A DNA stretch of 13,281 bases. Origin: Azonexus sp. (GTDB lineage: Bacteria > Pseudomonadota > Gammaproteobacteria > Burkholderiales > Rhodocyclaceae). Every line of letters begins with the position of its first letter. The stretch's first letter is position 1. This document shows, one piece after another, positions 1 through 12,380 of the stretch. Under the pieces are notes generated by a model that was not told the origin of the DNA, searched no databases, and saw only the letters and a list, made by a program, of their open reading frames with translations. The position numbers and the translations under genes were made by a program. The stretch lies in contig JAITWU010000364.1 of assembly GCA_031285115.1 (NCBI GenBank), forward strand, positions 1 to 13,281. The letters are read 5' to 3'.

Positions 1-2274
1 GTGTGCTGCGCTTACACGCAAAAACAGGTGATCCTCGCCAAGGATCATGTGCCGGAACTCGAAGCAAAAATATTCCACAACGACATCCGCGCCTACAGCA
101 AGGATTTCGAGCGTTTCTACCAGCGCGCCGAGCGGCTGCCGGGAGTCGAATTCATCCGCAGCTATGTCTCGGTCGGCGCTGAAGACCCGCTCACCAAAAA
201 TGTCACCATCTGCTACGCCACCGATCAGGGCGTCAAGGAGGACGAATTTGAACTGGTCGTTTTGTCGGTCGGCATCAACCCACCCAAGGATGCGCAGAAA
301 TTCGCCCGTATCTTCGGCGTCGAACTAAATGCCCAGGGTTTTTGCCGGACCGATCCGGCCAACCCGGTCAAAACCAGCCGCCCCGGCGTTTTCGTCAGCG
401 GCGCTTTCATGGGGCCGATGGATATTCCGGAATCGGTCTATACGGCAAGCGGCGCTGGCGCCCAGATTGCCGAACTGTTGCAGTCGCGGCGTGGCCGGTT
501 GTCGAAAAAGCGCGTCTACCCCGAAGAGCGCGACACCCGCGAAGAAGCGCCCAAGGTCGGCGTCTTCGTCTGCCGCTGCGGCGCCAATATTGGCCGTGTC
601 GTCGATGTGCCCGCTGTCGCCGAATACGCCGCCGGGCTGGAAAATGTCGTGCATGTCGAAGAAAGCCTGTTCGCCTGCGCCACCAACACCGCCCAGGCGA
701 TTGGCGAGACCATCCGCGACAAGGGCCTCAACCGCGTCGTTATCGCCGCCTGCACGCCGCGTTCGCACGAACCGCTGTTCCGCGACACGCTGCGCGAAGC
801 GGGCGTCAATCAATATTTTTTCGACATGGCCAATATCCGCGAGCACTGCTCCTGGGTGCACGCTAAGGAACCCGAGGTGGCGACCGGCAAGGCCAAGGAC
901 ATCGTGCGCATGTCGGTGGCCCGCGCCCAACTGTTGCAGCCGCTCGGCGAGTATTACCTGCCGATCAACAAGGCCGCGCTGGTGGTCGGCGGCGGCGTGG
1001 CCGGCATGACGGCGGCGCTGACCATCGCCAATCAGGGTTTCGAGACCTGGCTCGTGGAAAAAAACGCCGAACTCGGCGGCATCGCCCGGCGTTTGCATTA
1101 CACCGCCGAAGGCATGGCCGTGCAGCCTTTTCTCGCTGACCTGAGAAAAAAGGTCTACCAGCACCGCGATATTCACGTTCTGACCGAGGCCGAAATCGTT
1201 TCGGTCGATGGCTATGTCGGCAATTTCAGCACCCGCGTCAAGGCTAAATACCGCGAGCGCGTCATCGAACACGGCGTCGCCGTCATCGCCGTCGGCGCCC
1301 AGGAACTGAAGCCCGAGGAATACGGCTACGGCGAGAGCGAGCGGGTCATTACCCAACTCGAACTGGAAGAAAAAATCGGCGCGGGCGACGCCAGCTTGAA
1401 CGCCATCGACAGTGTGGTCATGATCCAGTGCGTCGGCTGCCGCCAGCCCGACCGCAACTACTGCGCCCGGGTCTGTTGCAGCGGGGCGATGAAGAATGCG
1501 CTGAAGCTGCGCGAAATGAAGCCGGACGCCGAAATTTACGTGCTTTTCCGCGACATCCGCACCTACGGCTTCAAGGAAGACCTCTACCGCGAGGCGGCCA
1601 GCCGCGATGTCCGTTTCATCCGCTATGAGCCGGAAGACAAGCCGCTGGTCGAGGCGGCGAGCGAAAGCGGGCGGGATTTCATGCGCGTGCTGGTGACCGA
1701 CCCGGTGCTCGGCAAAAAGCTGCAACTCGATGTCGACAGCGTGGTGCTCTCAACCGCGGTGATTCCGCCGGAAGGCGCGCTGACGATGGCCCGCCACTTC
1801 AAGGTGCCGCTCTCGCCCGACGGATTCTTCCAGGAAGCGCACGTCAAACTGCGCCCGGTCGATTTCGCCGCCGAAGGCGTCTATCTGTGCGGCACCGCGC
1901 AGTACCCCAAACATCTGCCGGAAACCCTCAACCAGGCTTACGCTGCGGCGGGCCGGGCGCTCACCCTGCTGACCCAGGATTCGGTGGTCGCCTCCGGCTC
2001 GGTGTGCGAGGTCGAAGAGCGCGATTGCGTCTCCTGCGGCGCCTGTATCACCTGCTGCACCTACAACGCCATCGACTTCAAGGAGACGCCGCGCGGCAAA
2101 AAGGCCGTGGTCAATCCGGTGCTGTGCAAGGGCGACGGGCTGTGCAGCGCCAAATGCCCGACCGGCGCGATTGGTTTGAAGCACTTTACCAATGACGCGG
2201 TGTTCCGCCAGATCGACGCCGCGCTCGCGCCGCGCCAGCCGCGCATCATTCCCATCATGGCGGCGAGGAACTGA
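1..2274 (+). CDS. HdrA-like FAD/iron-sulfur electron-transfer subunit (BamE-like), 5' partial
   Basis: The gene is open from base 1 and starts upstream: the first residues (VCCAYTQ) are the end of the Cys-rich motif that sits mid-way in an HdrA flavin module. Visible order: the C-terminal half of a first FAD module (about 1-165); an HdrA N-terminal [4Fe-4S] domain with C191/C193, C226, C251 and C283; a complete second FAD module with GGGVAG at 330-335 and CVGC at 477-480; and a C-terminal two-cluster ferredoxin domain (C676, C679, C682, C686; then C709, D712, C715, C719). HdrA proteins relay electrons and in some complexes bifurcate them at FAD; a double-module HdrA is typical of BamE in class II benzoyl-CoA reductases. 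D712 replaces the usual second cysteine of the last cluster. The stop lies 2 bases before the next start, so the two genes are likely translationally coupled. The HdrA family is certain; the BamE role is inferred from gene order. Confidence 0.93.
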   Translation: MCCAYTQKQVILAKDHVPELEAKIFHNDIRAYSKDFERFYQRAERLPGVEFIRSYVSVGAEDPLTKNVTICYATDQGVKEDEFELVVLSVGINPPKDAQKFARIFGVELNAQGFCRTDPANPVKTSRPGVFVSGAFMGPMDIPESVYTASGAGAQIAELLQSRRGRLSKKRVYPEERDTREEAPKVGVFVCRCGANIGRVVDVPAVAEYAAGLENVVHVEESLFACATNTAQAIGETIRDKGLNRVVIAACTPRSHEPLFRDTLREAGVNQYFFDMANIREHCSWVHAKEPEVATGKAKDIVRMSVARAQLLQPLGEYYLPINKAALVVGGGVAGMTAALTIANQGFETWLVEKNAELGGIARRLHYTAEGMAVQPFLADLRKKVYQHRDIHVLTEAEIVSVDGYVGNFSTRVKAKYRERVIEHGVAVIAVGAQELKPEEYGYGESERVITQLELEEKIGAGDASLNAIDSVVMIQCVGCRQPDRNYCARVCCSGAMKNALKLREMKPDAEIYVLFRDIRTYGFKEDLYREAASRDVRFIRYEPEDKPLVEAASESGRDFMRVLVTDPVLGKKLQLDVDSVVLSTAVIPPEGALTMARHFKVPLSPDGFFQEAHVKLRPVDFAAEGVYLCGTAQYPKHLPETLNQAYAAAGRALTLLTQDSVVASGSVCEVEERDCVSCGACITCCTYNAIDFKETPRGKKAVVNPVLCKGDGLCSAKCPTGAIGLKHFTNDAVFRQIDAALAPRQPRIIPIMAARN

Positions 2275-2276
2275 AC

Positions 2277-3056
2277 ATGGCTGCGAGCGATTTCAAACCC
2301 GTCGTCATCGGTTTTCTCTGCAACTGGTGCTGTTATGCCGGGGCTGATCTGGCGGGTGTTTCCCGCTTTCAGTACCCCTCGCATCTGCGCGTCATCCGCC
2401 AGATGTGCTCGGGCCGGGTCGATATCGAATTCGTCATGCGCTCCTTCCTGCAAGGCGCCGATGGCGTCTTCGTCGGCGGCTGCCATCTCGGCGATTGCCA
2501 CTACAACCCGGAAGGCAATTACGACGCCCTCGGCAACGCCCTGATCGGCAAGCGCATCCTGGAGCACATCGGCATCCGCCCGGAGCGGCTGCGCATCGAA
2601 TGGGTTTCGGCGGGCGAAGGAACGCGCTTTGCCGAAACGCAAAATGAAATCCACGCCACCATGATGGCCCTCGGGCCGCTTGGCGAAGCCGAAGGCCAGC
2701 CGGTCGCAGCCCTGCGTGAAGCCGTGCAGGCGGTGATCAATATGGTGCCTTACCTCAAGCTGGTCGAACGCGAGCGTTTTCGCCTGCCGCATCGCAGCGA
2801 GGAGAACTACCACAAGCTGCACGCCGACCCGGAATTCAACGCCATTTTCACAAGCATGGTGCTCGACAAGATTACCCAGAGCCGCATCATGGGCCGTCTG
2901 CGCGCCGAGGAAAGCCTGCAGGCGGAAGATCTCGCCACCGGCTTGCAACTGACCCCGGCGGAGGTCATGCGCCATTTCGACATTCTCGCCGAGCGCGGCA
3001 TGTTGCGCCTCGACGGGCGTCTCGCCCGGCATCTGCCGATTGCCACGGCCGCCTGA
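2277..3056 (+). CDS. MvhD-like hydrogenase delta / iron-sulfur linker subunit (BamF-like)
   Basis: 259 residues. The N-terminal 140 or so are an MvhD/FrhD-type [2Fe-2S] domain with the family motif C15-N-W-C18-C19-Y-x-G-A-D, then C44 and C69-x4-C74. MvhD proteins connect an electron-input module to HdrA; here the gene sits between HdrA-like and NuoE-like genes, as bamF does. The protein is longer than stand-alone MvhD: residues of about 205-255 read like a winged-helix fold (an LTPAEVMRHFDILAERGML segment), probably structural rather than DNA-binding. All candidate selenocysteine positions are cysteine and there is no in-frame TGA. A GAGGA ribosome site lies 7 bases before the ATG, inside the end of the upstream gene. 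The domain call is firm; the BamF assignment rests on context. Confidence 0.9.
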   Translation: MAASDFKPVVIGFLCNWCCYAGADLAGVSRFQYPSHLRVIRQMCSGRVDIEFVMRSFLQGADGVFVGGCHLGDCHYNPEGNYDALGNALIGKRILEHIGIRPERLRIEWVSAGEGTRFAETQNEIHATMMALGPLGEAEGQPVAALREAVQAVINMVPYLKLVERERFRLPHRSEENYHKLHADPEFNAIFTSMVLDKITQSRIMGRLRAEESLQAEDLATGLQLTPAEVMRHFDILAERGMLRLDGRLARHLPIATAA

Positions 3057-3079
3057 AGACAGAGGAGCCTCTACGCATC

Positions 3080-3532
3080 ATGTGCGAACAAGCCGTCGCC
3101 GCCATTATCGAAAACCACCGGGGCCAGCCGGAGGCGCTCATTCACGTCCTCACCGCCATCCAGCACGAACTGCGCTGGCTGCCGCGCGAGGTGCTGGCGA
3201 GGGTGGCCGAGGCACTCGGCGTGCCGCTCAGTCAGGCGCTCCAGATCGCGAGTTTCTACAAGGTCTTCAGCCTGACGCCGAAAGGCCGCCATGAAGTGCA
3301 TGTGTGCACCGGCATGACCTGCCACCTGTGCGGTGGCGACAGGCTGCTCGCCAAAGTCGAGGAAGCCACCGGCCTCAAACCCGGCGAAACCGACGCCGCC
3401 GGACGCTTCACGCTGGAGCGCGGCAGTTGCCTCGGTAGTTGCAGCATCGGCCCGGAATTGATCGTCGACGGCAGGCACCACGGGCGGATGACGCCGGAGC
3501 AGGTCGAGGTCGTGCTCGCCCAGTACCCCTAG
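3080..3532 (+). CDS. NuoE-like [2Fe-2S] thioredoxin-fold subunit (BamG-like)
   Basis: 150 residues, the normal size for the NuoE/HoxE/HydC family. A helical N-terminal part (about 1-65, with HELRWLPREVLARVAEALGV) precedes a thioredoxin-like domain whose four cluster ligands are visible: C76-TGMT-C81 and C117-LGS-C121. NuoE-type subunits carry one low-potential [2Fe-2S] cluster beside the flavin subunit, which is the next gene. A GGAG ribosome site (3064-3067) lies about 12 bases before the ATG, a slightly long spacing. The gene is 23 bases after the MvhD-like gene and 19 bases before the NuoF-like start. Because HdrA, MvhD and a BamB-like enzyme are the neighbours rather than membrane Nuo subunits, it most likely serves the BamG position of a class II reductase complex and not complex I. 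Confidence 0.91.
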   Translation: MCEQAVAAIIENHRGQPEALIHVLTAIQHELRWLPREVLARVAEALGVPLSQALQIASFYKVFSLTPKGRHEVHVCTGMTCHLCGGDRLLAKVEEATGLKPGETDAAGRFTLERGSCLGSCSIGPELIVDGRHHGRMTPEQVEVVLAQYP

Positions 3533-3551
3533 ATTGTCGAGGACGAAGCCC

Positions 3552-5210
3552 ATGCCCAAATTCAACACCGCCGCCGAACTCGAACAGTATTGCGCCCACC
3601 TTCTGGCGGCGCGCGATCCGGCCCGGCCCTGTATTGCCGTTTGCGCGGGCGCAGCCTGTGATGGCCTCGATTCGGCGGCGGTCGCCCAGGCGTTTACCGA
3701 CGAAATCGCCCGCCAGAATCTGGCTGGCCGGCTCGATCTGCGCGTCACCGGCTGCCACGGTTTTTGCGAAAAAGGCCCGAACGTCATCGCCGGGCCGCAG
3801 GATATTTGCTACTTCGAGGTCACCCCCGGCGATGTCCCGGAAATCATCCGCGCCACGCTCGCGGGCGAGGTTTATGAAGCAAAGATTTACCGCGACCCGG
3901 AGACCCGCGAAAAAATCGCGCCGATGAGCGAAATCCCCTACTACAAGCATCAGGTGCGCCTTCTCATCGGCGACAACCCGCGCCTCGACCCCCTGAAAAT
4001 CGACGACTATCTCGCCGTCGGCGGCTACGCCGCGCTAGTCAAAGCCCTGACCACGATGACGCCGGACGACGTGCTCGCCGAAGTCAAACGCGCCGATTTG
4101 CGCGGTCGCGGCGGCGGCGGTTTTCCCGCCGGGGCAAAATGGGAGACGACCAAAAACGCCCCGGAAAAAACCAAATACGTCATTGCCAACGGCCATGAAG
4201 GCGAATCTGCCGCCTTCATGGATCGGGCGATGCTGACCGGCAACCCGCACAAGGTGATCGAAGGGCTGATCATCGGCGCCTACGCCATCGGCGCGCATCA
4301 AGGATTCATTTACACGCGCCACGACGCGCCGCGCCTCGTCGAACACGTCAAGGCGGCGCTGGCGCAGGCTGAAGCCTATGGTTTTCTCGGCGAGAACATC
4401 CTTGGCAGCGGCTTCGATTTCAAGGTTGAACTGCATTTCGATGTCGGCATTTTCGTCTCCGGCGAATCCTCGGCGCTGATGCGCTCGATCGAGGGCAACG
4501 CCCCCGAGCCGCGCCCGAAATACATCCGCACCTCGGTTTCCGGCATCTGGGACAAACCCTCGAATCTCAACAATGTCGAAACCTGGGCCAACGTGCCGCA
4601 GATCATCGCTCGCGGCGCTGAGTGGTTCGCTGGCATCGGCAGTGAAAAGAGCAAGGGCACCAAGCTCGTTTCGCTCTCCGGCCACATCGTCAATAGCGGC
4701 ATTGTCGAAGTGCCGATGGGGACGACGCTGCGCACGCTCATTTTCGCTATCGGCGGCGGCGTGCGTGACGGCAAGGCGTTGAAGGCCGTGCATTTCGGCG
4801 GCGCCATGGGCGGCTCGCTACCGGTCGAGTACATCGACGCCCGGCTCGATTTCGATGAAATGTCAGCGCTCGGCGCACCCATTGGCGCCGGTGGTCTGCT
4901 GGTGATGAACGAAGACACCGATATGGTCGATATTGCCCGTTACCTGATGGATTTTCTCGTCAGGGAATCCTGCGGCAAATGCGTGCCCTGCCGCGAAGGC
5001 ATGTTCCAGATGCTGAAAATCCTCACCGGCATCGCTGAAGGCCGGGGCCGTAAATTCGATCTCGAACGCCTCGCTGAACTGGCCGAAGTCACCAGCCTTG
5101 GCAGCCTGTGCGCCCTGGGCAAGACTTCCGCCGCGCCGGTCAAGAGCATGTTGCAGTATTTCCGCGACGAATACACGGCGCGCATCGACGCCGGGAGCCA
5201 GACGCCATGA
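3552..5210 (+). CDS. NuoF-like flavoprotein with N-terminal [2Fe-2S] domain (BamH-like)
   Basis: 552 residues from the ATG at 3552, chosen because GAGGA (3539-3543) lies 8 bases before it; a TTG at 3534 would add six residues but lacks a ribosome site. Residues 1 to about 130 are an extra thioredoxin-like [2Fe-2S] domain (C31-x4-C36, C68-x3-C72), as in HydB/HndC-type NuoF proteins. The flavin domain has the FMN loop RGRGGGGFPAG (184-194), and the C-terminal [4Fe-4S] site is C474-GK-C477-VP-C480 plus C520. Two loops differ from ordinary NuoF: N213-GHEGES replaces NADEGEP (His for the conserved Asp), and G304-ESSAL replaces GEETAL (Ser306 for the second Glu). These loops hold FMN and NAD(H) in NuoF, so its donor may differ. 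No C-terminal 2x[4Fe-4S] ferredoxin is present. It overlaps the next gene by 4 bases (ATGA). Confidence 0.93.
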   Translation: MPKFNTAAELEQYCAHLLAARDPARPCIAVCAGAACDGLDSAAVAQAFTDEIARQNLAGRLDLRVTGCHGFCEKGPNVIAGPQDICYFEVTPGDVPEIIRATLAGEVYEAKIYRDPETREKIAPMSEIPYYKHQVRLLIGDNPRLDPLKIDDYLAVGGYAALVKALTTMTPDDVLAEVKRADLRGRGGGGFPAGAKWETTKNAPEKTKYVIANGHEGESAAFMDRAMLTGNPHKVIEGLIIGAYAIGAHQGFIYTRHDAPRLVEHVKAALAQAEAYGFLGENILGSGFDFKVELHFDVGIFVSGESSALMRSIEGNAPEPRPKYIRTSVSGIWDKPSNLNNVETWANVPQIIARGAEWFAGIGSEKSKGTKLVSLSGHIVNSGIVEVPMGTTLRTLIFAIGGGVRDGKALKAVHFGGAMGGSLPVEYIDARLDFDEMSALGAPIGAGGLLVMNEDTDMVDIARYLMDFLVRESCGKCVPCREGMFQMLKILTGIAEGRGRKFDLERLAELAEVTSLGSLCALGKTSAAPVKSMLQYFRDEYTARIDAGSQTP

Positions 5211-5821
5211 GCCAGGTGACGCTGAAAATCAATGACCGCGAAGTCGTCGCCGCAACCGGCATGAGCGTGCTGCAAGCGGCGCGGCAGGCGGACATCTTCA
5301 TCCCCACCCTGTGCCACCACGACCGGCTCGAAGCCTATGGCGGCTGCCGTCTGTGCATCGTCGAGGTCGAGTCGCGCGGCAGGATCAACCATGTCGTTTC
5401 CTGCACCTACCCGGTCGAACAGGGCCTCACGGTGCGCACCCGAACGGAAACCGTCGACCGCATCCGCCGCGTGCTGGTCGAAGAACTCATGGCGCACGCG
5501 CCCGATTCGCCGGAACTCAAAACGCTCGCCGAAGAATACGGCGCTGACCGCAACCGCTTTGGCAAGGAGCCGATCTTCTGCGTCATGTGCGGCCTCTGTG
5601 TGCGCTACTGCGCCGAGATCAAGGGCGAGCACGCGGTCGGCTTCATCGAAAACGGGCCACGGCGCGAAATCAGCTTCGTCCCCGAGCGGGCCGCCAAGGT
5701 CTGCTGGGATTGCCAGGAGTGTTTTACCGTGTGTCCGACTTCCTACGCCCAAGCCGCCTATCTGCTGGCCAGGGGCCTCGCCTTCCCGGACGCGCCGGGC
5801 GGCGCAGGGCCAGCAAAGTGA
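5207..5821 (+). CDS. NuoG/HoxU-like iron-sulfur subunit, short form (BamI-like)
   Basis: 204 residues from the ATG of an ATGA overlap with the NuoF-like stop. Residues 1-80 or so are a plant-type [2Fe-2S] domain (C36, C47, C50, C66). The C-terminal part carries two ferredoxin-type [4Fe-4S] motifs: C125, C128, C131, C135 and C166, C169, C172, C176-P. The region between, where complex I NuoG has its His-Cys3 cluster, reads HAPDSPELK: the His and general layout remain but the cysteines are gone, so that cluster is absent. There is no molybdopterin domain. Such short proteins wire clusters between a NuoF-like flavin and a partner enzyme, here matching BamI in the order E-F-G-H-I. A 40-base gap with a strong ribosome site leads to the BamB-like gene. 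Confidence 0.89.
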   Translation: MSQVTLKINDREVVAATGMSVLQAARQADIFIPTLCHHDRLEAYGGCRLCIVEVESRGRINHVVSCTYPVEQGLTVRTRTETVDRIRRVLVEELMAHAPDSPELKTLAEEYGADRNRFGKEPIFCVMCGLCVRYCAEIKGEHAVGFIENGPRREISFVPERAAKVCWDCQECFTVCPTSYAQAAYLLARGLAFPDAPGGAGPAK

Positions 5822-5861
5822 CCATCGGCATCAATCAAGACGAGTATGAAAAGGAGACATC

Positions 5862-7775
5862 ATGAGATATGCCGAAGCCGGATATAACCTCGAAATCGAC
5901 CTGAGCACGGGCAGTATCGAGCGCGAAGCGAGCGACCCGGCGTGGACGAAAGATTATCTCGGCGGCCAGGGCACGGCGGCGCGGATTTTGTGGGAGCGCG
6001 TACCGCCGGAAGTGGATGCCTTGTCGCCGGACAATCTGCTCATTTTCAGCACCGGCCTCCTGGTCGGCACCCCGGTGATCGGCGCCAACCGCACCATGGT
6101 CGATACCATCTCGCCGCAGACGGGCCTTTATTCGCACTCCATTTTCGGCGGCTTTTTCGGCCCCGAACTGAAGTGCGCGGGCTACGACAAAATCGTCATC
6201 CGCGGCAAGGCGGACAAACTGGTCTACCTCTACATCAACAACGACCAGGTCGAAATCCGCGACGCTTCCCACCTCGCGGGCAAGGGCGCGACGGAAACCG
6301 CCGACATCCTGCAAGCCGAACTGGGCGACACGCAGATCCAGGTTGCGGCCATTGGTTTGGCTGGCGAGCACCGCTGTTACATGGCCTCCATCGAGCACGC
6401 CAATTCCAGCGCCTCGCGCGGCGTCGGCGTCATCATGGGCGACAAGCGCCTGAAAGCGATTGCCGTGCGCGGGGCCAAGGATATTTATACAGCCAAGCCG
6501 GAAGCCCTGTTCAGCATCTGCAATCACATGATCCGCGCCATCCACGACAACCCGCACTGCGGCGACAGCATGGCGCATGGCGAGGGCGACCAGTTCCACG
6601 TCGACAACTTTGCCTGGGGCAACGCCCGCGCCCGCCGTCGCGATTTCTGGACGAAAGAAGTCGAAGACCACTGGAACGCCGTCGAAGACCGGCTGCGCGT
6701 GCGCTGGACGGGCTGCTACAACTGCCCCAAAGACTGCCATCAGGCGATCCAGACGCCGGGCCGCCGCCCCTATTTCCAGAAGTGTTACAGCAAGCTCACC
6801 TACGCCATGGCCGCCTACGAGGGGCTGGAATTCGACTACGACATCATCGCCATCACCCAGGAATACGGCATGGACGCCTACGCCACGCCGCAGGTCATGG
6901 CTTTTGCCGTCGAGCTATATGAAGCGGGCATTCTCACCGATGCCGACATGCCCGGTTTTCCCAAGACCGGGGCCGAGCGCTTTTACTGGCTGGTCGAAAA
7001 AATCGCCCGCCGCGAGGGCATTGGCGACATTCTCGCCGATGGCGTCTATCACGCCGCACGTCGCATCGGCAAAGGGGCGGAAGCCTACGATCACAACACC
7101 ATGAAGAAATTCGAGCAGGTGCCGATCAAGCTCTCGATGCTCAATCACCCGTATTTCCTGATGTACGCGACCAGCGAAAAAATGGCCATCAACCAGACCG
7201 AAGGCTCCTTCCCGCAAGCGCCGATCGCCGACAAGGCCGAGCGCGAAGCCTTCGTCGCCGGTTGGGAAGCGGCGCCCGAACGCTTCAAGAAATGGCTGCT
7301 CGAATGGGAGCCGCGCACCCATATGCCGCTCGAAGCGTCGATCAATGTCGCCGACTGGAACGAAACCATGCACTACGTCGATGACGCGCTCGGCATTTGC
7401 GCTTTCCTCGCTTCCTTCCGCGGCCAGTTCGGCGGGCGGCCGCCATATCACATCTACAACCTGCCGGAATTCATCAAACTCGCCGCCGGGATTGAACTCG
7501 ACGCCGACGCCCTGTGGCAGACGGCGGCGCGCAACCGCAATCTGATTCGCGCCATCAACGTGCGGCGCGGTATGCGCCGCGTCGACGAAGCCCCGCCCGC
7601 CGATCACTGGAAACACCGCGACCCGGAAATGGAGGAGAAGCTGCTCGACGCCTATTACGACCTCAAGGGCTGGAACCGGGACGCCGTGCCGACGGCGGCA
7701 ACGCTCGACCAACTCGGCCTGTCCTTCGTCAGGGATGATTTCATCGCCCGTGGCATTTTGCCCGCCACGGCTTGA
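5862..7775 (+). CDS. bamB: AOR-family tungsten enzyme, BamB-like (class II benzoyl-CoA reductase catalytic subunit)
   Basis: 637 residues, start supported by AAGGAGA 5 bases before the ATG. The AOR-family [4Fe-4S] ligands are C285-YN-C288-PKD-C292 and C513 in DDALGIC. From my memory of Geobacter BamB the likeness runs end to end: the MRYAE-GYNLE start, YLYINND, NWGNAR-like NAWGNAR region, LTY-MAAY, KLSMLN, INVRRGMRRVDE and the FI-RGIL end. C308 (QKCYSKLTY) aligns with the cysteine that ligates tungsten in BamB, and H246 (QFHVDNF) with its proposed proton-donor histidine. In BamB this subunit holds W-bis-metallopterin and reduces the aromatic ring of benzoyl-CoA without ATP. Two other BamB pocket residues (Glu251, His255) appear changed, so the substrate could be another aryl-CoA. 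Being last in the operon with no BamC beside it is unusual. AOR family certain; BamB subgroup likely; substrate inferred. Confidence 0.86.
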   Translation: MRYAEAGYNLEIDLSTGSIEREASDPAWTKDYLGGQGTAARILWERVPPEVDALSPDNLLIFSTGLLVGTPVIGANRTMVDTISPQTGLYSHSIFGGFFGPELKCAGYDKIVIRGKADKLVYLYINNDQVEIRDASHLAGKGATETADILQAELGDTQIQVAAIGLAGEHRCYMASIEHANSSASRGVGVIMGDKRLKAIAVRGAKDIYTAKPEALFSICNHMIRAIHDNPHCGDSMAHGEGDQFHVDNFAWGNARARRRDFWTKEVEDHWNAVEDRLRVRWTGCYNCPKDCHQAIQTPGRRPYFQKCYSKLTYAMAAYEGLEFDYDIIAITQEYGMDAYATPQVMAFAVELYEAGILTDADMPGFPKTGAERFYWLVEKIARREGIGDILADGVYHAARRIGKGAEAYDHNTMKKFEQVPIKLSMLNHPYFLMYATSEKMAINQTEGSFPQAPIADKAEREAFVAGWEAAPERFKKWLLEWEPRTHMPLEASINVADWNETMHYVDDALGICAFLASFRGQFGGRPPYHIYNLPEFIKLAAGIELDADALWQTAARNRNLIRAINVRRGMRRVDEAPPADHWKHRDPEMEEKLLDAYYDLKGWNRDAVPTAATLDQLGLSFVRDDFIARGILPATA

Positions 7776-7804
7776 GTCAGGGCCGCGTCATGTCCGGGGA
7801 AAAA

Positions 7805-7884
7805 ATGACCACCCAAATGACCACCAAACAGCGTCTGCTCTGGCAGGGCAAGCTCACGCTCGCCGTGCTGGCCGCGATGCGTTG
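7805..7884 (+). pseudogene. Truncated 5' end of an unidentified gene
   Basis: An ATG at 7805, preceded by CGGGGAAAAA as a possible ribosome site, opens MTTKQRLLWQGKLTLAVLAAM, a basic then hydrophobic start that could be a signal or membrane segment (an in-frame ATG at 7790 is an alternative). The reading frame loses any protein-like character where the transposase remnant begins near 7885, though it stays nominally open to 8041. I read it as the stump of the gene that followed bamB, cut by an insertion. I do not recognise the family; it may equally be non-coding. Confidence 0.3.
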
Positions 7885-8131: not shown

Positions 8132-8653
8132 ATGCCCTCGCCCGACAGTACCGAAAGCGCCTCACTGCCCGCGTCCGCGCCTTCCGGCGATCTGCGCGCG
8201 CCTTTCGGCGACGATCATGAGTCCCTGCGTATGTGGGTGCGCCTGGTCGGCTGTTACCACCTGATGGAAATCGGACTTCGCAATGAGTTGCGCACCAAGT
8301 TCGACACGACGCTGCCGCGTTTCGACCTGATGTCGCAGCTCTACCGCTATCCCGACGGTCTCAAAATGAAGGACTTGTCGCGGCTGCTGCTCGTCACCTG
8401 CGGCAACATCACCGGCTTGACCGACCGTCTGGTCGAAGATGGCATGATCCAGCGCCGCGACAACCCCGAGGATCGCCGCGCCTACCACATCGTTCTGACG
8501 GCCAAAGGCAAGAAAGCTTTCGAGGCCATGGCCGAGGATCACGAGCGTTGGGTCAGCGCGGCGCTCTCCGGACTGGCGAAAAAAGATCAGCAGCATCTGT
8601 CTGAACTGCTGAGCAAATTGAAGCGCCATCTCACCAGCTTGCCGACGTCCTGA
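8132..8653 (+). CDS. MarR-family transcriptional regulator
   Basis: 173 residues. After a roughly 30-residue Ser/Pro-rich tail, residues from about 31 onward form a standard MarR protein: dimerisation helices (MWVRLVGCYHLMEIGLRNEL), a recognition region (MKDLSRLLLVTCGNITGLTDRLVEDG) and the wing signature IQRRDNPEDRRAYHIVLTAKG with the conserved D-x-R-R. The long C-terminal helix follows. MarR proteins are dimeric repressors relieved by small ligands; BadR and CouR show that the family controls aromatic-acid and acyl-CoA pathways. Its place between the BamB-like operon and a MaoC hydratase makes an acyl-CoA ligand plausible, but nothing in the sequence identifies it. The ATG at 8132 has no good ribosome site; a start at the MWVR methionine is possible but would trim the first helix closely. 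Confidence 0.93.
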   Translation: MPSPDSTESASLPASAPSGDLRAPFGDDHESLRMWVRLVGCYHLMEIGLRNELRTKFDTTLPRFDLMSQLYRYPDGLKMKDLSRLLLVTCGNITGLTDRLVEDGMIQRRDNPEDRRAYHIVLTAKGKKAFEAMAEDHERWVSAALSGLAKKDQQHLSELLSKLKRHLTSLPTS

Positions 8654-8684: not shown

Positions 8685-9563
8685 ATGGCGCTTGATTACC
8701 AGACCCTGAAAAACTGGCCTTTTGGCCCGGTCGAGCAGACCTGGAGCCAACGCGACACCATGCTTTACGCGCTGGCGCTCGGCTGTGGTGCCGATTCCGG
8801 CAATGCGGACAATCTGCGTTTCGTCTATGAGGAAGGCCTGCGCGCTCTGCCGACCATGGCGACCGTCCTCGGCTACCCCGGTTTCTGGATGATGCAGGAA
8901 GCCAGCGGCATCGACTGGCGGCGCGTGGTGAACGGCGAGCAACGGCTCATCCTGCATCGTCCCCTGCCGACTGCAGGCCGTTTCATCGGGCGCAGCCGGG
9001 TGACGCACATTACCGACAAGGGCAAGGTCGGCGCGCTGGTGGTCACCGCGCGTGAACTGAGCAACGCCGTTACTGGCGATTTGCTGGCCACCGTGCAAAC
9101 CGTGACCGTTTGCCGTGGTGACGGCGGCTACAGCGCCACTGGCCAGCCCAGCGACGAACCGCTGCCGCCCTTGCCCGGGCCGCCGGCCGACCGTTCCCCG
9201 GATGACGTGATCGACTTGCCAACCCGTCCCGAAACGGCGCTGATTTACCGTCTGGTCGGCGGCGACATGAATCCGCTGCACGCCGACCCGCGTAGCGCCG
9301 CCGCCGCTGGCTTCGAACGGCCCATCCTGCATGGACTGGCCAGCTTCGGCCTGGTCGGCCGCGCCGTGCTTGCCGTCTGTTGTGGCGGTGATCCGACCCG
9401 CTTGACCGCGCTCGCTGCGCGGTACTCGGCCCCGGTTTTCCCTGGCGAGACGCTACGCACGGAAATCTGGCGCATCGGGCAACAGGCGCATTTCCGTGCC
9501 AGCATTCCGGCACGCAACGCGCTGGTGCTCAGTCACGGCCTGGCTCGATGCGCGGCCGCCTGA
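8685..9563 (+). CDS. MaoC-like / hydratase-2-type enoyl-CoA hydratase
   Basis: 292 residues, the size of a double hot-dog hydratase. The N-terminal half is the substrate-holding MFE-2 N-type repeat (LRALPTMATVLGYPGFWMM). The C-terminal half has the hydratase-2 motif Y188-RLVGG-D194-M-N196-PL-H199; Asp and His five residues apart are the catalytic pair in this family. These enzymes add water to trans-2-enoyl-CoA to give (R)-3-hydroxyacyl-CoA, and relatives act on fatty acids, steroid side chains or aromatic-pathway intermediates. It starts 31 bases after the MarR gene on the same strand and is probably co-transcribed with it. Its ribosome site is weak. No terminator is evident after it. It may supply a hydration step for products of the upstream reductase, but that link is positional only. 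Confidence 0.91.
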   Translation: MALDYQTLKNWPFGPVEQTWSQRDTMLYALALGCGADSGNADNLRFVYEEGLRALPTMATVLGYPGFWMMQEASGIDWRRVVNGEQRLILHRPLPTAGRFIGRSRVTHITDKGKVGALVVTARELSNAVTGDLLATVQTVTVCRGDGGYSATGQPSDEPLPPLPGPPADRSPDDVIDLPTRPETALIYRLVGGDMNPLHADPRSAAAAGFERPILHGLASFGLVGRAVLAVCCGGDPTRLTALAARYSAPVFPGETLRTEIWRIGQQAHFRASIPARNALVLSHGLARCAAA

Positions 9564-9755
9564 TGTTATGCGGTCATTGCGCTAGATAAAGCCAATTAGA
9601 TTCCGTAAATACGCGCAATTCCCGCAATCATAGGATGGAATATTGCAAAATTTTTCAATTAACATTGAATAAATTGATGTTATATATAAAAAAAGAATAA
9701 CATCAATGATTACAATCGTCGGGTCGTATCGGTTCCAATTCCGACAAGGCCTTCT
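9564..9755. promoter_or_regulatory. AT-rich intergenic promoter region
   Basis: This 192-base spacer is much richer in A and T than the surrounding DNA. It probably carries the promoter of the secreted protein gene at 9756. TTGCAA (about 9642-9647) followed 17 bases later by TGAATA, and the TATATAAA stretch at 9683-9690, are the best sigma-70-like candidates, none strong. The inverted repeat listed separately overlaps the second. AAGG at 9746-9749 is the ribosome site, 6 bases before the ATG. Confidence 0.45.
9673..9707. repeat. Perfect 11-bp inverted repeat with 13-base spacer
   Basis: ATTGATGTTAT (9673-9683) and its exact complement ATAACATCAAT (9697-9707) flank ATATAAAAAAAGA. The arrangement fits either an operator for a dimeric regulator lying over the likely core promoter of the 9756 gene, or a hairpin in its 5' leader. 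It lacks the GC-rich stem of a normal terminator. An imperfect half-copy (TAACATTGA) lies just upstream at about 9659-9667. Confidence 0.6.
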
Positions 9756-12380
9756 ATGCGCGCTATCAACCCTTTGTTTCCATTCGAGTTTTCCCTCCGC
9801 GCCACGGCTTCTTTACTGATTTTGGCGACGATCGTTTTTTCCATGCCCGTCAAGGCGGCTTGCTCAATAGTTTATGGAACTGTAGTGACCACCCCTGTAG
9901 CCATGGGGACGGGAAACAGTTGTAACGCTATTCAAGCCGGAACTGGCGGCAATATTATTGCTCCCAGCGTGACCATAACGGGCACGCCGCCCGCTTCCCC
10001 GGCGTTTCCAGGGTATTACGTGTATGCGCATGACGGCGGATCAATCAATTTCAGCGGTTCGAGCGTTGTCAATGTAACAATGGGGCAGCAGACACTGGTG
10101 GCGGGAGATCCGACAACCGCGACAACCCGGTCGGCGCTTGCCGCCATCGGCTCCTCGTCCCAAATCGATGCCAGAGACGGAACAAAAATCACCGTCGCCA
10201 ACGCGGGTCACGGAATATACATGCGGGACGGCGGGCAGGTGCTTATTGACAACTCTACTGTCATCGAAGTGGATTCATCGGGATTCGGAATCGTGGTTGA
10301 CAATACGACCACCACGTTGAAGGATAATCCGAAAATTACAATTATTGGCTTCAACACATCCACTTTTGGCAATGGCTTGCAAGTGAGGAACGGCGGAAAT
10401 ATCACCATTCAGGATTCATTGATGATCGAGGGAGAAACGAGCAATACGCCTGCCGATGACGGAGGAATCAAGGGAATTGAGGTGACATGTACCGCGAATG
10501 GCGCAGCGGGCGCATCGTGCGGCTCGAGTACACCGGGCGGCAAAGTGACGATTGCTCCAGGCGCTCATGTAGACATGCGGCTTTCAAACATGCAGGGAGT
10601 AAACGTGTATGGCGTCAACGCCACATCCGGAGGACAGTTTTTAGGTGGCAACATGACGATTGACGTGCTCAATGATATGAATACATCCACAGTGTGCGCC
10701 AACTCGAGTAATCGGCTCACCTGCCAGGCTTATGGTTATGGTTTCAGATCGACGGATATCACCGCCACGGGTGACCGTTCTTTTATTGACGGAACCAACA
10801 GCACGATAACGCTGCATCCGGGCACCCGCAACGCGACTGGCGCGGCCATGCTCAATGGCGGTCTTGTGGAGATGGACCACACCACCACGATTACCTCCAC
10901 CAGCAATGGGGCCGCCCCTTGGGATAATTTGGGCATCAAAGTCGATAGAACCGTGGTGCCGGACGGCACGGTGGGGTCGGGGCAGACGCTTACGATGAAC
11001 GGAATAAGCGGTATCGGCCTTTTGGCCACTGCAACGGCCAATGCGATTCCGGTCTCCTCGTCCATCAGCGTGGAGCAGTTCACGGTGCGAGGTACGGGTA
11101 CCCGGCTGGGCATGACCGCGAATGCGGGCAGCATTATCACGGCCACTGGCGGCAGCAGCGTGACCGCCAACATCTATACCGGACCACTCTATAACTATGC
11201 AAACTATGACGGCACACCGGTTTCAGCCGCGCTTGAGGTCGCTGGATCGCCGGCGTCGAACGCAGTGGGGGCTCCGTATTTGGGCGGCACGATCAATCTC
11301 GTTGATTCAATTGCGACATTGCTGGGTGATACGTCGACGGGAACCATCGGAAATAACGGGCTGACGCCCGACCAGACCGCTGGAGGCATCACCGCGCTGT
11401 ATACGGATGATGCTTATCCCAATGCCGTCAACCTCGATAACTCAAAGCTGATGACCGAAACCGCGTTCGGAATAACCGCGCTGGGCAGCCGCGTGGACGT
11501 AACCCTGACGAATGGCTCGGAGGCCTCCGGCGGTGATTGTTCGACAACGGATTTGATTGCAGCCGGCGGCTGCCGGCTGGCGCAGTCCATTCTCGACCAG
11601 TACGGTGACCCGAGTTTCGCCCTTCTTACCGCAAAAAGCGCGTCGATCATGAAAGGCAATGCGCTCGCGGATACGGACAGCACCTTGAATATGAGGTTGT
11701 CGGAAAGTTCGCAATGGATCGGAGCGGCGCTCAACGTCACCAACGTGGGTTTGATCAGTCCCAGTACGTGGGTAATGACGGCCAATTCCACCGTGTCCAA
11801 AACGACGCGCAATGCGGGTCTGATCGATTATGTCGGTCCGCCGAAAGGCAGTGATCTGACGGATCTCGCGAGCTACAAGACGCTGACGACGCAAAACTTC
11901 GCCGGCGCTGGCGGCACGGTCAGTCTCAATACTTATCTCGGAGACGACTCTTCGCCATCGGACCGGCTGGTGATCAATGGCGGCGCTGCTACTGGCACCA
12001 CCTATCTGAAGATCGCCAATACAGCGGGCCTCGGCATGTTGACGACGGGCGATGGCATCCTCGTCGTGGAAACCATAAGCAACGGTACGACCGACGGCAC
12101 GACGGCTTTGGACGCCTTCGCGCTGGCGTCCCCTGTCGCGGCGGGCGGTTATGAATACGAACTTTTCCGCGGCTGCCTGGTAGCGGCAACGTGTTCGAAC
12201 ACCGATCGGAACAACTGGTATTTGCGCAGCAAGGCGGCGGCTCCAAGAAATAGCGATGTCGCGGCTGTTCCCGCTCTTGGCCCGGTGGCGCTGGCCGCGC
12301 TGGCGCTTACGTTGATGTTACTGGCGCTTCGGCAAAACCAAAAGCGCCTTGGCGCGCGGACGCGGAAACCGAAAAATTAA
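9756..12380 (+). CDS. Secreted beta-helix / autotransporter-passenger-like surface protein with C-terminal anchor
   Basis: 874 residues. A Sec signal peptide is visible (basic start, hydrophobic LLILATIVFSMPVKA, cleavage near residues 34-35). The mature part is rich in Gly, Ser, Thr and Asn with recurring beta-helix turns such as HDGGSINF, RDGGQVLI and RNGGNITI. Residues of about 705-825 resemble the end of pertactin-type autotransporter passengers (GGTVSLNTYLG, DRLVINGGAATG, NNWYLRS). The expected outer-membrane beta-barrel is missing: the protein ends with VPALGPVALAAL, a hydrophobic helix (about 840-858) and a basic tail, resembling IPTL-type C-terminal sorting signals. A surface or envelope-anchored adhesin-like role is an inference. 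GC content is lower than in its neighbours, suggesting separate acquisition. It has its own AT-rich promoter region and a downstream terminator, so it is a single-gene unit. Confidence 0.78.
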   Translation: MRAINPLFPFEFSLRATASLLILATIVFSMPVKAACSIVYGTVVTTPVAMGTGNSCNAIQAGTGGNIIAPSVTITGTPPASPAFPGYYVYAHDGGSINFSGSSVVNVTMGQQTLVAGDPTTATTRSALAAIGSSSQIDARDGTKITVANAGHGIYMRDGGQVLIDNSTVIEVDSSGFGIVVDNTTTTLKDNPKITIIGFNTSTFGNGLQVRNGGNITIQDSLMIEGETSNTPADDGGIKGIEVTCTANGAAGASCGSSTPGGKVTIAPGAHVDMRLSNMQGVNVYGVNATSGGQFLGGNMTIDVLNDMNTSTVCANSSNRLTCQAYGYGFRSTDITATGDRSFIDGTNSTITLHPGTRNATGAAMLNGGLVEMDHTTTITSTSNGAAPWDNLGIKVDRTVVPDGTVGSGQTLTMNGISGIGLLATATANAIPVSSSISVEQFTVRGTGTRLGMTANAGSIITATGGSSVTANIYTGPLYNYANYDGTPVSAALEVAGSPASNAVGAPYLGGTINLVDSIATLLGDTSTGTIGNNGLTPDQTAGGITALYTDDAYPNAVNLDNSKLMTETAFGITALGSRVDVTLTNGSEASGGDCSTTDLIAAGGCRLAQSILDQYGDPSFALLTAKSASIMKGNALADTDSTLNMRLSESSQWIGAALNVTNVGLISPSTWVMTANSTVSKTTRNAGLIDYVGPPKGSDLTDLASYKTLTTQNFAGAGGTVSLNTYLGDDSSPSDRLVINGGAATGTTYLKIANTAGLGMLTTGDGILVVETISNGTTDGTTALDAFALASPVAAGGYEYELFRGCLVAATCSNTDRNNWYLRSKAAAPRNSDVAAVPALGPVALAALALTLMLLALRQNQKRLGARTRKPKN

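Follow-up and report, generated by a model that had tools for sequence, protein, structure and literature searches.

The 13,281-nt window analyzed here is one entire contig (G000:C174) of an Azonexus sp. metagenome-assembled genome (MAG; G000, 2.64 Mb in 414 contigs, 83% complete). Positions 1–7775 carry a putative aryl-coenzyme A (CoA) reductase operon of six tightly spaced genes on the same strand, whose families, HdrA, MvhD, NuoE, NuoF, NuoG and aldehyde oxidoreductase (AOR), correspond to bamE, F, G, H, I and B (Table 1). An earlier sequence-only reading had described this series as one tight operon, and both the open reading frames and the family matches agree with it. Because the window is bounded by contig ends, its first gene, bamE, is cut by the edge. 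Contig C3 of the same genome (L090; 3447 bp), picked up through the end of a BamA-type ring hydrolase gene at its start (TIGR03200 positions 291–356), shares its last 119 bp exactly with the start of the window; it holds the 3′ end of bamA, a VOC-family gene, bamC, bamD and the beginning of bamE (325 codons). Read across both contigs, the operon is bamA-VOC-bamC-D-E-F-G-H-I-B and covers all eight subunits BamB–BamI plus the ring hydrolase BamA. BamC, which the sequence-only reading had considered not adjacent, is thus encoded with BamD in the upstream flank, and a loss of BamC can be dismissed.

Table 1. Features of the window. L002 is the corresponding locus of a second Azonexus genome (see text).
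Feature	Position	Strand	Evidence and remarks
bamE, HdrA-like FAD/4Fe-4S subunit, 5′ truncated, start on G000:C3	1..2274	+	HdrA2 family NF040770; 757 amino acids; 94.6% identical to residues 287–1043 of complete L002 BamE; 119-bp exact overlap with C3
bamF, MvhD/FlpD-like	2277..3056	+	PF02662, E 2.1e-46; 91% to L002 BamF
bamG, NuoE-like 2Fe-2S	3080..3532	+	PF01257, E 6.9e-45; 88% to L002 BamG
bamH, NuoF-like, FMN/NADH site	3534..5210	+	TIGR01959, 420.9 bits; 92% to L002 BamH; start 3534 or 3552
bamI, NuoG N-terminal-like	5207..5821	+	PF13510 (on longer frame from 5108); 92% to L002 BamI; start picked by codon score; 4-nt overlap with bamH
bamB, tungsten active-site subunit, second (non-Geobacter) BamB clade	5862..7775	+	4z3w, E 5.5e-240; 56.5% to Geobacter metallireducens BamB; clade B, support 100/99; Cys322 and His260 kept, Glu251 not
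Deletion scar of 2-aminobenzoyl-CoA monooxygenase/reductase-like gene	7790..7881	+	Intact in frame over 716 amino acids at the same place in L002
MarR-family regulator, travels with bamB	8132..8653	+	PF01047; MarR after bamB also in L002–L007, L037, L047, L049
MaoC/hydratase-2-like enoyl-CoA hydratase, part in operon function uncertain	8685..9563	+	PF01575, PF22622; 81% to L002; common to L002 only

The same gene order is present at locus L002 of Azonexus sp. isolate Pmx449_bin29, whose proteins are 100% identical to those of contig C26 (34,432 bp) of G013, a 96% complete genome of the same genus and a close relative of G000. Between the two loci, BamC, BamD, BamE, BamF, BamH, BamI and BamB share 91–98% identity (95% for BamB) and BamG 88%, and the ratios of nonsynonymous to synonymous substitution between the window genome and L002 are 0.07–0.20 for the Bam genes, with purifying selection on all genes tested. 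High identity combined with such low ratios indicates that the Bam genes are maintained and are not chance frames. The L002 BamA scores above its family cut-off (612 versus 464 bits), and BamC, tested on the L002 orthologue, matches 4z3w_E (E = 7e-66). Enzymes of the AOR/WOR type have no protein ligand on tungsten. We rejected an aldehyde oxidoreductase identity for the window BamB, which matches 4z3w at E = 5.5e-240 against 3e-66 for the best AOR and has Cys322. On these sequence comparisons, the operon almost certainly encodes a class II-type aryl-CoA reductase in a betaproteobacterium, as had been proposed; passages of two papers describe class II reductases as enzymes of strict anaerobes (PMC12096430, PMC5400083). 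The rearranged order with bamB last is likewise real: outside Betaproteobacteria, loci that show the whole operon read B-C-D-E-F-G-H-I (for example, L011, L021, L022, L023, L027 and L040), whereas the window's operon reads C-D-E-F-G-H-I-B.

That the contig is a mis-binned fragment, uninformative on Azonexus, is very improbable. The division of the MAG into 414 contigs, the drop in guanine-plus-cytosine content from 63% in the operon to 57% downstream and flanks of the operon unlike those of L002 would all fit such an error; against it, a named Azonexus bin of the same genus has the operon with a BamB 95% identical, the window joins C3 of its own bin through the shared 119 bp, and genes that we take to be rpsT-like and murJ-like lie further along the window contig. 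The presence of the operon in that bin also led us to reject a deltaproteobacterial origin of the contig.

We placed the window BamB in two trees, a first, quicker one of 70 rows and a second of 60. The first was built without the contig-end fragments L026, L031, L035, L036 and L038, the fragments L072 and L073 and 11 near-identical aldehyde oxidoreductases, retaining only L056, L058, L064 and L070 from L056–L070; the second also left aside ten additional long-branch rows, and a bamB remnant from L045 (below) is in neither. In the 60-row tree, the window BamB belongs to clade B (16 rows, support 100/99), in which 12 betaproteobacterial rows (100/98) are joined by Geobacterales- and Desulfocapsaceae-type rows. 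Clade A comprises G. metallireducens BamB and 12 others (83/70 in the 60-row tree, SH-aLRT 100 in the 70-row tree), and clade C, a further 27 rows, lies on the clade B side. The sequence-only reading had set the BamB clade against true aldehyde oxidoreductases, placement with which would have refuted it; the protein is no aldehyde oxidoreductase, but it also falls outside the clade of the G. metallireducens enzyme. By protein search, clade B bamB occurs in two of 36 genomes of the genus and, at E <= 1e-150, in the window's own genome alone out of 399 across the order. The single origin of the betaproteobacterial set beside Geobacterales sequences fits a transferred operon, which was among the options raised earlier. 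A separate case of bamB multiplicity is the Chloroflexi MAG locus L028 (5283–11944), with three consecutive bamB genes, of which one belongs to clade A and the other two to a different clade.

The active site of clade B enzymes is partly conserved and partly rebuilt. None of the 56 BamB rows of clades A, B and C, 16 of them in clade B, lacks the catalytic His260 or Cys322; passages of one study describe Cys322 as the tungsten ligand of BamB and Glu251 as the proton donor near the ring (PMC12096430). All 13 clade A rows have Glu at position 251; the 16 clade B rows all have Thr or Ser instead, and Glu251 is absent from all 27 clade C rows. Clades B and C have also lost about 14 residues of the immediately preceding loop. 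In the window BamB, Ser replaces Glu251, Asp replaces Glu257 and position 255 is Glu; the motif around position 255 is shifted and one residue longer, still with acidic residues and a His, and the rebuilt local motif of clade B is D[ST]MAHGEGD. His255 occurs in five of 13 clade A rows and so is not invariant there either. Because the placement of residues 251–257 depends on the alignment, we read these changes as a remodeled pocket, not as lost function.

The genes around clade B bamB point to a substrate. Setting the MarR gene aside, an NF006101-type monooxygenase/reductase gene (FAD_binding_3 plus Oxidored_FMN) lies directly 3′ of bamB in L002, L003, L005, L006, L007, L047 and L049, and nearby on the opposite strand in L008. 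Where the contig continues (L003, L007, L047 and L049), enoyl-CoA hydratase, acyl-CoA dehydrogenase and RidA (PF01042) genes come next. An aerobic 2-aminobenzoyl-CoA pathway is described in part of an earlier paper (PMC4539516). A candidate 2-aminobenzoate-CoA ligase of G000, encoded on a short contig of its own (C178), has anthranilate-CoA ligase 4wv3 as its best match in the PDB (E = 2e-80, versus 7e-68 for benzoate-CoA ligase). Nine of 11 betaproteobacterial genomes searched, a set that does not include G093, have an orthologue with 52% identity or higher, and G000 stands at 76%; the gene is divergent beside VOC-bamC-bamB in L006, L047, L049 and L119 and lies downstream of bamB in L008 (55%). 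Source records give many relatives of the ligase the name 2-aminobenzoate-CoA ligase, such names being mostly automatic. At L045 of Desulforhabdus sp. TSK, presumably a sulfate reducer, a ligase gene (71%) and a VOC gene (71%) stand in front of a clade B-like bamB remnant, separated from it by unrelated sequence of transposon-remnant-like appearance. Because ligase, VOC and bamB are found together there in the absence of aerobic genes, this locus suggests that their arrangement is older than the association with the aerobic genes.

In the window itself, the monooxygenase gene has been reduced to a scar. Positions 7701–7857 match L002 11840–11985, through the start of the monooxygenase gene, and positions 7854–7881 match L002 13713–13740, ~1.7 kb further on. 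We found no full-length monooxygenase elsewhere in G000 (best match 46%, reductase half only), and G013 has a full-length one on contig C104, in an intact-looking cluster. With a scar at this place and no full-length copy found in G000, the anaerobic operon has outlived its aerobic neighbor here. The L002 gene (11930–14080) encodes 716 amino acids versus 768 in relatives, and the same genome has a 780-amino-acid copy (L116).

The VOC gene accompanies clade B bamB closely. It lies within ~5 kb or less of bamB in 11 of the 16 clade B rows and is reached in two more through a same-genome partner contig ending in a matching gene (L004/L102 and L007/L119); of the remaining rows, L008 has none nearby, and L005 and P0007 cannot be judged. 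Among clade C rows only L033 has it, and no clade A operon has a VOC gene of its own, the copies at L015 and L094 adjoining their clade B genes. The protein resembles methylmalonyl-CoA epimerase but falls short of that family: the L002 copy scores 77.9 bits against TIGR03081, below the cut-off of 114.95, and the double His (HH) of 3oa4 and 6xbr is replaced by ML or FL/ML-like residues in 13 of 13 aligned VOC proteins. We take the epimerase-family His to be a ligand, and the solved relative 6bu2 likewise lacks it.

Clade B bamB often coexists with other aryl-CoA reductases. Among the 12 betaproteobacterial genomes that carry it (G000, G013, G085–G090 and G093–G096), six also have a canonical clade A operon (G085, G087, G089, G090, G093 and G094), preceded, where the contig extends far enough, by bamA and a dch-type gene. 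Because these six already possess a canonical bamA/dch/bamB–I operon, clade B is their second reductase. At L006, L037, L047 and L049 the clade B genes amount to VOC-bamC-bamB only, and among the loci seen only those of the two Azonexus genomes have bamA inside the clade B operon; by protein search, clade B is the sole BamB in G000 and G013, with its own D–I subunits and BamA. The sequence-only reading had raised a second reductase beside class I. In G000 this does not hold, since neither PF06050 nor PF01869 gave a match in the 83% complete genome, and G013 gave none to PF06050; a second system does exist in the six genomes with a canonical operon, and in G085 a class I BcrC (TIGR02263, 643 bits, cut-off 421) is encoded ~8 kb from clade B bamB. 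Across 60 genomes of the genus, PF06050 is found in six, as an adjacent pair in G004 only. Contig G085:C76 (L003, L094 and L095) holds a clade A operon, a clade B operon, aerobic 2-aminobenzoyl-CoA genes and bcrC within ~50 kb, that is, three aryl-CoA ring-attack systems next to each other.

These features make a variant complex for a different aryl-CoA, an option in the sequence-only reading, very likely. Our best overall reading, which we put at about 50%, is that the complex reduces 2-aminobenzoyl-CoA and that its product takes a shortcut to ring hydrolysis. We infer the substrate, the role of the VOC protein and the route; for the main substrate we lean toward 2-aminobenzoyl-CoA (anthraniloyl-CoA) on the basis of neighborhood, clade and missing genes. 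By analogy with the Geobacter enzyme, reduced ferredoxin would feed a bifurcating HdrA-like core that sends electrons at about −650 mV to the BamB tungsten cofactor and others to NAD+ or menaquinone. 2-Aminobenzoyl-CoA, made by the ligase of contig C178, would undergo two-electron reduction to an amino-cyclohexadiene-carbonyl-CoA; ammonia loss after reduction, which the VOC protein may assist, would give BamA's substrate, and BamA would hydrolyze this to 3-hydroxypimeloyl-CoA, leaving dch and had unneeded. The direct shortcut to BamA we propose tentatively.

This route carries a prediction. Because reduced 2-aminobenzoyl-CoA minus ammonia is BamA's substrate and the next two enzymes would be bypassed, we wrote down the absence of dch and had before searching 12 genomes for had (TIGR03201, cut-off 339 bits) and dch (TIGR03189). 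Ten of the 12 had been chosen for carrying clade B or class I, so the sample is not random. The had gene scores above cut-off in ten genomes (503–574 bits); G000 and G013 alone fail, at 81 bits at most. The dch gene is above cut-off in seven, and G000 and G013 reach 82 and 89 bits, the general crotonase level, while both keep bamA. A parallel is provided by anaerobic 2-fluorobenzoate degradation, for which passages of one paper report that, once 2-fluorobenzoyl-CoA has been reduced, OAH, a hydrolase of the BamA type, needs no other enzyme to form 3-hydroxypimeloyl-CoA; had can be dispensed with, since the oxidation state is already correct (PMC5742626).

The same logic would serve other benzoyl-CoAs with an ortho substituent, such as 2-hydroxybenzoyl-CoA (salicylyl-CoA): the enol of BamA's substrate would result directly if salicylyl-CoA were reduced, dch and had would be missing just the same, and the family of the neighboring gene, NF006101, is named 'bifunctional salicylyl-CoA 5-hydroxylase/oxidoreductase'. 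We consider these substrates improbable, however, as the RidA imine deaminase-type neighbor and the ligase relatives indicate an amine.

Several observations weigh against anthraniloyl-CoA and the shortcut. Only within Betaproteobacteria do the genes connect cleanly to 2-aminobenzoate. L004 and L037 have no aerobic cluster adjoining bamB, the cluster of G086 (the genome of L004) lying on a different contig, L117; G087 and G094 lack a ligase orthologue among the 11 genomes searched; and four Geobacterales-type or other clade B/C genomes, namely G091, G092 and G097, which carry close clade B relatives, and G098, have no ligase above 36% identity. L045 is the one presumed sulfate reducer with ligase-VOC-bamB, and its bamB is a 206-residue C-terminal remnant only (region 9558–10669). 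At L009, clade B bamB is beside genes resembling those of phenylacetyl-CoA/phenylglyoxylate oxidation. The missing genes have limits as well: dch is also below cut-off in G004, G086 and G090 (149–165 bits), so the cut-off alone gives no clean yes or no, and because G000 and G013 are incomplete and closely related, the genes they both lack represent hardly more than a single event. The G013 cluster, moreover, contains PaaF- and PaaH-like genes that could replace dch and had. In detail, L009 (1036–9421, a Geobacter MAG) has its bamB behind molybdopterin oxidoreductase-like genes and genes for subunits of a 2-oxoacid:ferredoxin oxidoreductase of the phenylglyoxylate type (PadG/PadI-like).

The PaaF- and PaaH-like proteins belong to a further explanation, that of an ordinary class II benzoyl-CoA reductase forming dienoyl-CoA, with the hydratase and dehydrogenase steps taken by such non-orthologous enzymes. 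The full set of Bam subunits is encoded along with BamA, Cys322 and His260 are conserved, no aryl-CoA reductase other than the clade B one was found in G000 or G013, and part of one paper indicates that aryl-CoA ligases acting on 2-aminobenzoate may also accept benzoate (PMC8388817). We nevertheless judge it unlikely, because BamB falls outside the characterized clade and its proton-relay loop is altered, searches of G000 and G013 gave no orthologue of dch or had, and genomes with a canonical operon or class I retain clade B as a second system beside 2-aminobenzoate genes. A reductive deamination, in which 2-aminobenzoyl-CoA is reduced and loses ammonia with rearomatization, perhaps by the VOC protein, would instead deliver benzoyl-CoA to the same or another reductase. 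It agrees with the conversion of anthranilate to benzoyl-CoA via a 2-aminobenzoyl-CoA reductase that is reported for Azoarcus evansii in part of an earlier paper (PMC4539516), which itself counts against the shortcut, and benzoyl-CoA could be taken onward by the clade A operon in six of the 12 genomes or by class I in the same groups (G004/G085). In G000 and G013, however, no other reductase, dch or had was found, so that benzoyl-CoA would have no ordinary onward route there, and we regard deamination as unlikely.

Other features of these loci stand apart from the question of substrate. A single in-frame TGA, perhaps a selenocysteine codon, interrupts BamE-like frames at G090:C144, G093:C67 and G098:C5, C304 and C312; bamE of the window and of L002 has no in-frame TGA. 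An FdhD-like sulfurtransferase gene is divergent from bamA at L092 (9052–9930), and FdhD-like genes lie near several other bamB loci, perhaps for cofactor sulfuration. Further downstream in the window, positions 9756–12380 encode a large protein of secreted type that matches autochaperone (PF18883) and pertactin, and whose C-terminus (VPALGP, a hydrophobic stretch and a basic tail) we take to resemble an IPTL-CTERM-type sorting signal.

Beyond a class II enzyme in a betaproteobacterium, the likely novelty is a distinct reductase branch tied to 2-aminobenzoate, together with a genome-level sign of a shortened pathway. Nitrate-respiring betaproteobacteria might possess an unrecognized ATP-independent anaerobic anthranilate pathway, consisting of the ligase, a second kind of class II reductase, VOC-assisted ammonia loss and BamA and leading to 3-hydroxypimeloyl-CoA without benzoyl-CoA, dch or had; we consider this conceivable, at somewhat less than even odds. 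If true, the operon offers the first named candidate genes for breaking down 2-aminobenzoate anaerobically, explains in chemical terms why the enzymes are missing and suggests a possible function for an uncharacterized BamB clade spread over several phyla. Among the matches listed in our literature searches, no paper links BamB to anthranilate, and part of one paper calls the genes for this degradation in Azoarcus evansii 'barely known' (PMC8388817). The findings also warn that bamB and bamA alone are not markers of benzoyl-CoA degradation.

Compared with BamBCDEFGHI of G. metallireducens, the window operon has the same eight subunit families, a BamB identical at 56.5% of positions over the full length, the BamC match to 4z3w_E and both Cys322 and His260; it differs in its BamB clade, in lacking Glu251 and the ~14-residue loop, in its gene order with VOC and bamA in front and in a genome in which no dch or had was found. 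Its nearest kin are Georgfuchsia toluolica and uncultured Rhodocyclales and Comamonadaceae MAGs, whose BamB proteins are 75–80% identical to that of the window and form with it the 12-row clade; that of the G. toluolica isolate (P0007) is 79% identical. Unlike G000, six genomes of this group also keep the canonical operon, and four of its loci are limited to VOC-bamC-bamB. The toluene pathway of G. toluolica uses class I, according to part of one paper (PMC9765128). Class I reductases catalyze the same kind of reaction and occur in facultative anaerobes, including the Azonexus-genus G004 and the genome of L003, but are unrelated, ATP-dependent enzymes of which G000 yielded none of the families. 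The aerobic 2-aminobenzoyl-CoA pathway of Azoarcus evansii, likened here by description only, shares the ligase type, monooxygenase/reductase, MarR, hydratase, dehydrogenase and RidA found beside clade B bamB in relatives; it depends on oxygen, and G000 has lost the monooxygenase at this place. Closest in chemistry is anaerobic 2-fluorobenzoate degradation, in which an ortho-substituted benzoyl-CoA loses its substituent after ring reduction, OAH suffices and had is dispensable (as reported in part of PMC5742626), but which relies on a class I reductase and promiscuous enzymes of the benzoate pathway and releases fluoride in place of ammonia.

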